Of a stretch of 64,000 nucleotides of DNA, positions 12,003-15,659 are shown one piece after another. The notes below the pieces were generated by a model. That model did no database searches. It was not told the origin of the DNA and worked only from the letters and a program-made list of their open reading frames with translations. This DNA is from Halorubrum sp. CBA1229 (GTDB taxonomy: Archaea; Halobacteriota; Halobacteria; Halobacteriales; Haloferacaceae). The stretch lies in assembly GCF_003721435.2 (NCBI RefSeq), contig NZ_CP054585.1, positions 496,001-560,000 of the forward strand. The letters run 5' to 3'. Both the position numbers and the translations under genes were made by a program. The stretch's first letter is position 1, and every line of letters starts with the position of its first letter.

Positions 12003-12593
12003 TCACCGTCCAGTGTCGTACTTATACGTGGCCGACTCGGGGTCGATCCCGAAGTCCTCCGGCGATTCCTCCGTGTCCTCCGCCGCGGCGTCCGCCGGCT
12101 CGGCCTTCTTGAACGCCTCGCGGAAGCGGTCCGGCATGTCGAACTCGTCAGTCGGGAGCCGCAGGCCGACGACGCCGCCGCCGAGGAACTCGCGCTTCTC
12201 GTCGAGCCGGTCGGAGAGCGCCGGGGGGAGGTCCTCGGTGTCGACCTCCTCGAAGCCGAACTGGGTGAGGTACTCGGGCTGGTCGGTGAGCACGTACACC
12301 GTCTCGAACCCGTCCGCGGCCGCGGTGTCGACGAGGCGCTCCACCACGTGCGCGCCGACGCCGCGGCCGCGCCACTCGGGGAGCACGCCGATCCCGGTGA
12401 GTTCGATCCGGTTCTCCTCGTCCCCGTCGCCGCGGTGCAGGCGGAGCCGGCCGAAGCCGGCCCGGTCGCCCGACTCCTGGTCGACCGCGATCACGTAGTC
12501 CCGTGACCGGAAGGCGACGTCGTCGAGCCCGAGCCGCTCGATCGCGTCCAGTAACCACGCCTCGTCACGGTTCTTGGCGTCGCGGACGTACAT
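12003..12593 (-). CDS. GNAT-family N-acetyltransferase
   Basis: This 196-residue protein has the acetyl-CoA-binding motif A at residues 66-85 (TGIGVLPEWRGRGVGAHVVE, containing the R-G-R-G-V-G signature) and the following VYVLTDQPEYLTQFGF block typical of GNATs. Residues 165-196 form an acidic tail. The acceptor cannot be told from the sequence; related proteins include amino-acid N-acetyltransferases and uncharacterised MSMEG/YjbC-like enzymes. The gene follows the threonine-synthase-like gene on the same strand after a GC-rich dyad. Confidence 0.78.
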   Translation of the reverse strand: MYVRDAKNRDEAWLLDAIERLGLDDVAFRSRDYVIAVDQESGDRAGFGRLRLHRGDGDEENRIELTGIGVLPEWRGRGVGAHVVERLVDTAAADGFETVYVLTDQPEYLTQFGFEEVDTEDLPPALSDRLDEKREFLGGGVVGLRLPTDEFDMPDRFREAFKKAEPADAAAEDTEESPEDFGIDPESATYKYDTGR

Positions 12594-12696: not shown

Positions 12697-13923
12697 TTAA
12701 ATGCCTTGGCCCATCAGGTGGCTGCGCAGCACGTCCGGCGTCTTGAGCCCGGCGTCGCTGTTGATCAGGACGACCGTCTCCGTTCCGTCGAAGAACCCGT
12801 CTTCCTTGAGCGCCCAGGCGCCGGCGGGCGCGGCGCCGCCGGTGGCGCCCATCTCCATCACCTCGTTCTGGGCGACGGCGACCGCGCTCGCGAGCACGTC
12901 CTCGTCCTCGACGCCGACCGCCGTCCCGCCGCTCTCCGCCACCGCCTCGACCGCGGCCGCGCCGCCCGCGGGGTCGGCGATCTCCAGCTCGCCGCAGATC
13001 GTGTCGGGCGTCTCCCACGGCTCCGGCTCGTCGAGCCCGCGCTCGACCGCCGCCGCGATCGGCGCGCAGCCCGCCGCCTGGGCCGCGACGACCTTCGGGA
13101 CCGCGTCGATCGCGCCGACCCGCGCCAGCTCCGCGAACCCCTTATAAACGCCGGCGACGACCTCGCCGGTCCCGGTCGGGACGACGACGACGTCGGGCGC
13201 CGCGCCGAGGTCGGCGACCAGCTCGAACGCGAGCGTCTTCACCCCGTCGTGGCGGTACGGCGTCGCGAACTCGCCGAGGTCGGTGTAGTCGGTCTCCAGC
13301 TGCTCGTCGACCGCGTCGGCGGCGTCCGGGAAGCGGCCGCCGACCACGCGCATGTCGCCGCCGTGGACGTTCGTCATCGCCTTGTTCGAGAAGGCGCACC
13401 GCGAGGGGACGAACGCGTACGAGCGCAGGTCGGCCCGACCCGCGTACGCCGCCATCGACTGCCCGGCGTTGCCCGGGCTCGCGCACGCGAGGGGCTCGAC
13501 GTCCTGTCCCTCGTCCGCCCGCGCCGCGACCGCGGTGAGCGCGACCGAGAGCCCGCGGTCGAGCACGGTGCCCGTGGGGTTCCGTCCCTCGTCTTTGACG
13601 TACACCGCGTCGACGTCGAGCTCGTCCGCGAGCCGGTCGGTCGGGACCAGCGGCGTGGCGCCCTCGCCCGCCGAGATAGCCGCTTCCGCCGGGAACGGGA
13701 GCAGCGCGTCGAAGCGCCAGTGGCCCCGCCCCGTCCCGGCCGGCCCGTCGCGCGGAGCCCCGAGCAGCGTCTCCGGGTCGACCGCGTCGTAGTCGTAGGC
13801 GGGGTCGAGCCCCCGGGCCTGCTCCTCGGCCGACACGGTCGTCGGGTCGGCCGTCTCGTGGACGCGACCCGACGCGCGACTCTCCAGCCCGCGGAACGCC
13901 GTCGTCGTCTCCGTCAGCTCCAT
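12697..13923 (-). CDS. Threonine-synthase-like fold-type II protein without the PLP lysine
   Basis: This 408-residue protein of the tryptophan-synthase-beta/threonine-synthase fold has KDEGRNPTG (residues 110-118), ACASPGNAGQSMAAYAG, the phosphate-loop region VVPTGTGEVVAGVYKGF and a C-terminal AGLKTPDVL block. The normal Schiff-base sequence NPTGSFKDRG reads NPTGTVLDRG here, so the lysine that should hold PLP is Leu121 (codon CTC at 13561-13563). It also lacks the N-terminal Cys4 ribbon of many archaeal threonine synthases. It may be a non-catalytic paralogue or may use another residue; true threonine synthase activity is doubtful. A structured repeat lies upstream. Confidence 0.75.
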   Translation of the reverse strand: MELTETTTAFRGLESRASGRVHETADPTTVSAEEQARGLDPAYDYDAVDPETLLGAPRDGPAGTGRGHWRFDALLPFPAEAAISAGEGATPLVPTDRLADELDVDAVYVKDEGRNPTGTVLDRGLSVALTAVAARADEGQDVEPLACASPGNAGQSMAAYAGRADLRSYAFVPSRCAFSNKAMTNVHGGDMRVVGGRFPDAADAVDEQLETDYTDLGEFATPYRHDGVKTLAFELVADLGAAPDVVVVPTGTGEVVAGVYKGFAELARVGAIDAVPKVVAAQAAGCAPIAAAVERGLDEPEPWETPDTICGELEIADPAGGAAAVEAVAESGGTAVGVEDEDVLASAVAVAQNEVMEMGATGGAAPAGAWALKEDGFFDGTETVVLINSDAGLKTPDVLRSHLMGQGI

Positions 13924-14321: not shown

Positions 14322-15659
14322 ATGAACGGAGACGTCACCGTTATCGGCGGCGGGCTCGCCGGGCTCGTCGCGGCGGCCCGGCTCGCCGAGGCGGGCGCGG
14401 ACGTGACGCTGTACGAGCGACGGCCCGAGGTCGGCGGGCGCGTCCGCACAGAGACCGTCGACGGATTCACCCTCGACCGCGGCTTCCAGGTGCTGTTCAC
14501 GAGCTACCCGGCGGTCGCGAGCGAGCTCGACATCGACGCCCTCGACGTCCGGCGCTTTGCCCCCGGCGCGACGATCTGCCGGCCGGGATCGCGCTCGACC
14601 CTCTCGGACCCCCTCCGCGACCCCCGCGGGGCGATCCCCTCCCTCCTGAACGACGAGGTCTCCTTCTCGGACAAGCTCCGGACGCTCGCGCTCCGGTACG
14701 ACCTCTCGAACCGCGACGAGGACGACTTCTTCGCCGGCCGGGACGACTCCTCCGGCGGCCCGGACGACGCCTCCATCCGCGAGTACCTGCGCGACTGGGG
14801 GTTCGCCGACGACTACGTGGAGCACTTCGTCGAGCCCTTCTACGGCGGCATCACCCTCGACCGGAGCCTCTCGACCTCGAAGCAGGTGTTCGAGTACACC
14901 TTCCGCGCGATGGGCCGCGGCGCCATCGGCGTCCCCGCCGAGGGAATGAGCACGATCCCCGAGTCGCTCGCTGCCCGCGCCCGCGAGGCCGGCGTGGCGA
15001 TCGAGACGGGCGAGGACGTGGATTCGGTCCGGACCGCGGACCAGGGTCGGGTCCCGTTCCGGACCGGGAGCGGCGACGCCGAGGGCGCGACCGTCGAACT
15101 GGCCGACGGCTCGACGCGCGAGGCGGACGCGGTCGTGGTCGCGGCGACGCCGCCCGAGGCGCGCCGGCTCACGGGCGTCGAGTCGGTCCCGACCGAGGCC
15201 GTCCCGAACGTCACCGGCTGGTACGCGCTCCCGGCGGGCGAGTCGTTCGAGACCGGGAAGCGGATCCTGCTCAACGCCGCGGGCGAGTCGCCCAACGCCG
15301 TGGTCCCGATGTCGGAGGTCGCGCCAGAGTACGGCCCCGACGACCGCGCGCTGCTCGCCGCGACGTTCCTCGGCGAGGACTCCCTCGACCGCCCGACGGA
15401 CGCCCTCCGCGACGACGTCCGGGACGCCCTCGACGCGTGGTACCCCGGCCGCGACTTCTCCGGACTGGAGACCGTCGACGTCCACCGGATCCGGTTCGCG
15501 CAGTTCGCGCAGCCGCCGGGCGTCCACGCCGACCTCCCCGAGCCCGACGACCCCGATGGCCCCGTCGTCCTCGCCGGCGACTACACGGAGTGGTCGTCGA
15601 TTCAGGGCGCGCTGGAGAGCGGGCGGGCGGCGGCAGACGCGGCGGGCGAGCATTTATAA
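14322..15659 (+). CDS. FAD-dependent oxidoreductase of the phytoene desaturase/protoporphyrinogen oxidase superfamily
   Basis: This 445-residue flavoprotein has an N-terminal FAD fold VIGGGLAGLVAAARL at residues 7-21, ERRPEVGGRVRTE (34-46), and a C-terminal FAD contact in VVLAGDYTEWSSIQGAL. It resembles amine-oxidase-type enzymes acting on carotenoids, porphyrinogens or polyunsaturated chains. Length and motifs do not match CrtI closely, so the substrate is left open. A TATA box 24 nt upstream indicates a leaderless transcript. The gene converges on the E1-alpha gene with a 42-bp gap. Confidence 0.72.
   Translation: MNGDVTVIGGGLAGLVAAARLAEAGADVTLYERRPEVGGRVRTETVDGFTLDRGFQVLFTSYPAVASELDIDALDVRRFAPGATICRPGSRSTLSDPLRDPRGAIPSLLNDEVSFSDKLRTLALRYDLSNRDEDDFFAGRDDSSGGPDDASIREYLRDWGFADDYVEHFVEPFYGGITLDRSLSTSKQVFEYTFRAMGRGAIGVPAEGMSTIPESLAARAREAGVAIETGEDVDSVRTADQGRVPFRTGSGDAEGATVELADGSTREADAVVVAATPPEARRLTGVESVPTEAVPNVTGWYALPAGESFETGKRILLNAAGESPNAVVPMSEVAPEYGPDDRALLAATFLGEDSLDRPTDALRDDVRDALDAWYPGRDFSGLETVDVHRIRFAQFAQPPGVHADLPEPDDPDGPVVLAGDYTEWSSIQGALESGRAAADAAGEHL

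Follow-up and report, generated by a model that had tools for sequence, protein, structure and literature searches.

A threonine-synthase-like protein of haloarchaea without the Schiff-base lysine: probably a conserved pseudoenzyme that has lost PLP repeatedly

The gene and its missing lysine

The window, a stretch of 64,000 nucleotides from Halorubrum sp. CBA1229, carries on its minus strand an open reading frame for a threonine-synthase-like protein, which starts with an ATG at 13923 (Table 1). The Schiff-base motif of threonine synthases, NPTGSFKDRG, reads NPTGTVLDRG in this protein. The first-pass annotation had placed Leu121 in the position of the lysine, and the alignment and the codon bear this out; in solved threonine synthases the residue aligned with Leu121 is the Schiff-base lysine (Lys61 in T. 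thermophilus 1uim, by counting along the printed alignment). A sequencing error at this codon, which would have undone the observation, is excluded because changing CTC to AAG or AAA takes three base changes, and because position 121 is Leu or Phe in every sampled Halorubrum orthologue.

Table 1. Features of the locus, with positions in the window.
Feature	Position	Strand	Basis
Lysine-less threonine-synthase-like protein, 408 residues	12697..13923	-	PF00291, 203.8 bits; below the PRK08197 and TIGR00260 cut-offs
Motif NPTGTVLDRG, residues 115-124	13552..13581	-	Translated sequence
Codon CTC, Leu121 in place of the Schiff-base lysine	13561..13563	-	Alignment; Leu or Phe in Halorubrum orthologues
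Asn loop SPGNA, residues 149-153; Ala150 of the lysine-bearing form is Pro	13465..13479	-	Alignment
Former PLP-phosphate loop GTGEV, residues 251-255; GGGVG in lysine-bearing orthologues	13159..13173	-	Alignment
Glu312; Gly in lysine-bearing orthologues, Glu in 49/49 Haloferacaceae rows	12988..12990	-	Alignment
NSDAG, residues 388-392, replacing NTG[AT]G at the pyridine-N1 side	12748..12762	-	Alignment
GNAT acetyltransferase, next gene downstream; a neighbour only in near Halorubrum relatives	12003..12593	-	Neighbourhood comparison
FAD amine-oxidase-like gene, divergent; conserved neighbour of both forms	14322..15659	+	Neighbourhood comparison

The overall fold is predicted to be that of a threonine synthase, as first proposed. 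The AlphaFold2 model is confident (mean pLDDT 92.4), and the structures closest to it are the threonine synthases 6cgq and 1v7c (Z about 47, rmsd 1.9-2.0 over 325-328 residues). Taken over the canonical ThrC enzymes (TIGR00260; Thermus 1uim/1v7c, B. subtilis 6cgq), the likeness amounts to Z scores of 43-48, rmsd of 1.9-2.5 over 324-328 residues and about 31-33% identity. Both the predicted fold and the profile score, well above the PF00291 cut-off of 35 bits, place the protein in the PALP superfamily (fold type II). It nevertheless scores below the cut-offs for TIGR00260 (125.3 vs 167.1 bits) and PRK08197 (NCBIfam NF006050; 251.2 vs 303 bits), the latter of which is passed by three lysine-bearing haloarchaeal forms (387-389 bits). 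With the site lysine absent and no new conserved lysine in the alignment, the covalent attachment of PLP that goes with fold type II would not be available. Lysines nearby were considered as substitutes and rejected; K110, K181, K229 and K394 are all present in lysine-bearing forms too.

Besides this protein, the genome has 12 PALP matches, of which 11 exceed the family cut-off. One of the matches is a canonical ThrC (L004/L105; 293 bits against the TIGR00260 cut-off of 167), the other threonine synthase that the first-pass annotation had proposed to look for; canonical ThrC has NPTGSFKDRG and PVGNAGN, in contrast to the protein described here. In H. volcanii, HVO_2969 is presumably the canonical ThrC and, if so, the lysine-less protein does not replace ThrC in that species. 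Insertion of a transposon in HVO_2969 (thrC3) leads to a requirement for glycine, serine and threonine (PMC4300041).

Distribution and orthology in haloarchaea

Of 194 sampled haloarchaeal genomes, 191 have a match to the family with E below 1e-60. The comparison set consists of 174 ingroup sequences extracted from the sampled genomes, with named loci examined apart. The lysine is replaced in 119 of the 174, by 12 different residues: position 121 is K in 55 sequences, L in 37, T and A in 20 each, V in 11, G in 10, R in 9, Y in 5 and F in 3, with one each of I, E, D and Q. None of the 49 sampled Haloferacaceae copies (21 of them from Halorubrum) has the lysine; Haloferax species have Leu. Alignment of haloarchaeal homologues, the check proposed at the outset, thus indicates a change that is much more widespread than can be seen from the window, spanning the Haloferacaceae and, separately, other families. 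In three sequences (L195, L235 and L278) a lysine at 121 sits within an otherwise degenerate pocket, either as a chance return or as a last remnant; they were left out of the lysine-form set.

Lysine-bearing and lysine-less genes share their surroundings. Among loci with enough upstream sequence, the gene lies head-to-head with an FAD amine-oxidase-like gene at 23 of the 46 that carry the lysine; for lysine-less loci the figures are 14 of 17 in Haloferacaceae and 9 of 32 elsewhere. A LysE-type translocator gene is found near both forms, in the same direction and behind the gene in most of 70 loci, sometimes at a distance of 67-131 bp (e.g. L066:5183-5818). The same holds for a SirR-type DtxR regulator, located behind the gene in most of 68 loci and usually 50-130 bp away in Haloferacaceae. 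In H. volcanii, HVO_0817 is an amine oxidase (PMC4300041) and HVO_0819 is SirR (PMC11349517); the gene placed between them, HVO_0818, is probably the orthologue. In the window, neither a LysE nor a DtxR gene lies directly behind the open reading frame, and the GNAT gene is found there instead; the latter was rejected as a functional partner, given its restriction to near Halorubrum relatives.

On this comparison the two forms are orthologues in one conserved neighbourhood of FAD amine oxidase, SirR/DtxR regulator and LysE exporter; the neighbourhood itself may be plain synteny. PRK08197-type lysine-bearing orthologues have the same locus and neighbours as the window protein, about 50-54% mean identity and the C-terminal LRSHLM.QGI, and differ from it in having the lysine, the GGG phosphate loop and zinc-ribbon cysteines. 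The first-pass description of a non-catalytic paralogue therefore survives in one half. The sequence supports an absence of PLP chemistry, but 'paralogue' is misleading because the protein sits at the locus occupied by lysine-bearing orthologues in other haloarchaea. A spare paralogue beside an active copy was rejected on account of this shared locus and of the window genome, in which a search for family copies found no lysine-bearing second copy. Many Halorubrum and some relatives do have such a second copy at another locus (L101, L286-L290, L086, L087, L100), with a different C-terminus, LRAHLGE. Many other Haloferacaceae have a single match at E below 1e-60.

The remodelled pocket and its history

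The phosphate-binding loop, initially described as kept, has in fact changed. Where ThrC has PVGNAGN and lysine-bearing orthologues have PTGGGVGL, the window protein has PTGTGEVV, so that neither the GNAGN nor the GGGVG of threonine synthases is present. Gly252 is retained in 2% of lysine-less sequences. Conservation in the lysine form extends to 163 columns. Retention of these in lysine-less sequences is lowest at 121, 319, 228, 252, 231, 38, 120, 150, 312, 170, 254 and 321; besides the lysine and the residue before it, this list takes in position 150 of the Asn loop and sites in the phosphate loop and in segment 312-321. Eleven PLP-loop columns, picked for what is generally known about the fold type II site and not by their retention, are retained less than columns elsewhere (median 0.53 vs 0.85, p 0.02), in a test that was not blind because the alignment had already been seen. 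Within Haloferacaceae, Glu254 and Glu312 are present in 49 of 49 rows and G320-G321 and G362-G363 are fixed or nearly so, and Asn152 and the loop glycines G251 and G253 are mostly retained; in several other lineages Asn152 is replaced by D, H, A or P. Residues common to lysine-bearing and lysine-less forms (N115-T117, D122, R123, K181, H187, R224, D307, T308, R400, L403 and others) would be the framework of a function that the two have in common.

The lysine form is taken as ancestral, since a non-haloarchaeal relative (L301: TFK, SAGNA, PTGGGTGLIGM) has both the lysine and the GGG loop. Losses have occurred inside single genera, where R in L081 stands against K in L271 and L265, T in L277 against K in L079 and L274, and A in L247 and L256 against K in L233. 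These three within-genus losses (g22, g37 and g46) are clear and, together with the large Haloferacaceae clade, bring the count to at least four. Parsimony gives 6-7 changes, and a count that allows no regain gives 18 on the best tree. In the outgroup-rooted tree the lysine form is nested among lysine-less branches. Taken at face value, this would imply loss followed by regain; we ascribe it to long branches, although support at the base is weak. The total number of losses is uncertain because long branches meet at this poorly supported base. Lysine-bearing L233 has Y279H, P316A and a changed W69 in common with its lysine-less sisters, which is evidence against replacement by transfer.

In recent losses the changes tend to gather at the cofactor site. 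L277 has changed at 5 of the 11 PLP-loop columns vs 11 of 151 others (p 0.0016) and L081 at 3 of 11 vs 5 of 151 (p 0.011); L256 has a similar concentration (p 0.02), and L247 has no significant one at the PLP loops (p 0.33). Their lysine-bearing sisters have 0 to 7 columns changed, and L271 and L265 none. A150T, G252S/D/T, K228A/V, M231L/T/A, changes at G319, and A320G recur across losses, though not every position in every loss. In 5 of 6 independent pairs G252 was lost along with the lysine, and never the opposite (p 0.06).

The gene is under purifying selection. When the window protein's orthologues from near Halorubrum are compared pairwise, dN/dS is 0.11-0.15, compared with mostly 0.04-0.13 for lysine-bearing pairs; together with the fixed Glu254 and Glu312 of Haloferacaceae, this fits a protein in use.

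Function and alternative readings

We consider it rather probable, taking the evidence as a whole, that a threonine synthase of PRK08197 type has lost PLP repeatedly and persists as a conserved pseudoenzyme without the cofactor. The loss of PLP chemistry is well supported by sequence: since lysine, phosphate loop and neighbouring pocket residues are replaced together, an internal aldimine would be impossible, and probably no PLP is bound. We infer its absence from the real protein. Threonine synthase chemistry would not be expected without the lysine, the GGG loop and the N1-side Thr-Gly. Because the gene is intact, occurs in nearly all haloarchaea and evolves under purifying selection, some function should nevertheless be kept, one that either never depended on PLP or outlived its loss. 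Most likely the remodelled cleft would take an amino-acid-like or other ligand, or the protein would bind a partner, and thereby regulate amino-acid (threonine-family) metabolism or export. Canonical ThrC is a possible partner; a tie to amino-acid export or homeostasis, or to metal regulation, is a guess from the LysE and SirR neighbours. Since Asn152, G251 and G253 are mostly retained in Haloferacaceae, their form could bind a phosphate-bearing ligand, even PLP non-covalently. More generally, lineages with and without the cofactor (at least four losses, up to 18 without regain) have the gene at one and the same locus, and those without it have arrived convergently at a similarly remodelled pocket. 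The role of the family in haloarchaea may thus need no PLP at all, a new ligand-binding or regulatory family having evolved repeatedly from one enzyme; we put this at a little short of an even chance.

Several other readings have to be weighed against that of a PLP-free pseudoenzyme. The first-pass annotation had also suggested an enzyme with a different mechanism, and the new acids Glu254 and Glu312 could indeed form an active site for PLP-free chemistry or another cofactor. The fixed signature of Haloferacaceae resembles a new ligand or new chemistry more than relaxation; yet other lysine-less lineages, many of them at the same locus, differ at these positions, and we know of no precedent for PLP-free catalysis in fold type II. 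This reading is unlikely, if still worth entertaining. Its suggestion of a PLP-binding regulator fares worse, because the phosphate loop, the Asn loop and pyridine-side residues have changed jointly with the lysine. Non-covalent binding, which would make the protein a PLP carrier, a PLP sensor or a slow enzyme working through an external aldimine, agrees with the residues retained around the phosphate in the window's family and with lysine mutants of fold type II enzymes that hold external aldimines (K41A OASS, 1d6s; K87T TrpB, 2tys; both among the structural matches). We regard it as improbable all the same: residue 150, the N1-side residue and segment 319-321 changed along with the phosphate loop in separate losses, a Glu in that loop is unfavourable for phosphate, Asn152 is gone from several other lineages, and no new conserved lysine could stand in.

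An obligate pairing, with the lysine-less protein as inactive partner of the lysine-bearing second-locus paralogue, would suit the many Halorubrum with both copies, and inactive-active pairs of this type are known. It is very improbable, however, in view of the window genome, which has the lysine-less form and ThrC without the second copy, and of the many other Haloferacaceae with one match only. Decay of the gene or an artefact is hardly credible. Although a few copies are broken into frames, the codon is three changes from lysine, dN/dS is low and the family is found almost throughout the haloarchaea; sequencing error, chance and pseudogene were likewise rejected on the 49 Haloferacaceae copies, the three base changes and dN/dS. 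The broken copies include one from Halorubrum (L085/L099, G038:C1:549324-550555) that is split over two frames by a frameshift, either real or sequencing-born.

The usual explanation for pseudoenzymes is that they are spare duplicates. In this family the cofactor would have been lost from the single-locus orthologue itself, repeatedly and with convergent changes in the pocket. The nearest parallel is the eudicot TSB-like protein, a non-catalytic tryptophan synthase beta paralogue that activates its partner; it too derives from a PLP enzyme of fold type II, has become a pseudoenzyme and is still in use (PMC12727527). TSB-like, however, is a duplicate that diverged by two residue changes while an intact enzyme stayed alongside it; in haloarchaea the orthologue itself was altered on several occasions, and the entire cofactor site is gone. 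In trypanosomatids, a catalytically dead deoxyhypusine synthase paralogue works with an active one (PMC3663545); by analogy it may illustrate how an inactive subunit could activate its partner, but fold and cofactor are different, and the haloarchaeal form needs no lysine-bearing copy to be present. A search of the available literature found no paper on lysine-less haloarchaeal threonine synthases. The group is abundant and genetically tractable, Haloferax included, and natural before/after pairs within genera (L081 vs L271, L277 vs L274) bear on why a PLP enzyme is kept without its chemistry. A practical caution is that haloarchaeal members annotated as threonine synthase would, from their active-site residues, often be incapable of being one.

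A further difference concerns the N-terminal region. Zinc-ribbon cysteines (C..CG...CPDCGG; residues 10-42, 13798-13896 in the window) are found in most relatives, but Halorubrum and a number of other genera with the lysine-less form have lost them.
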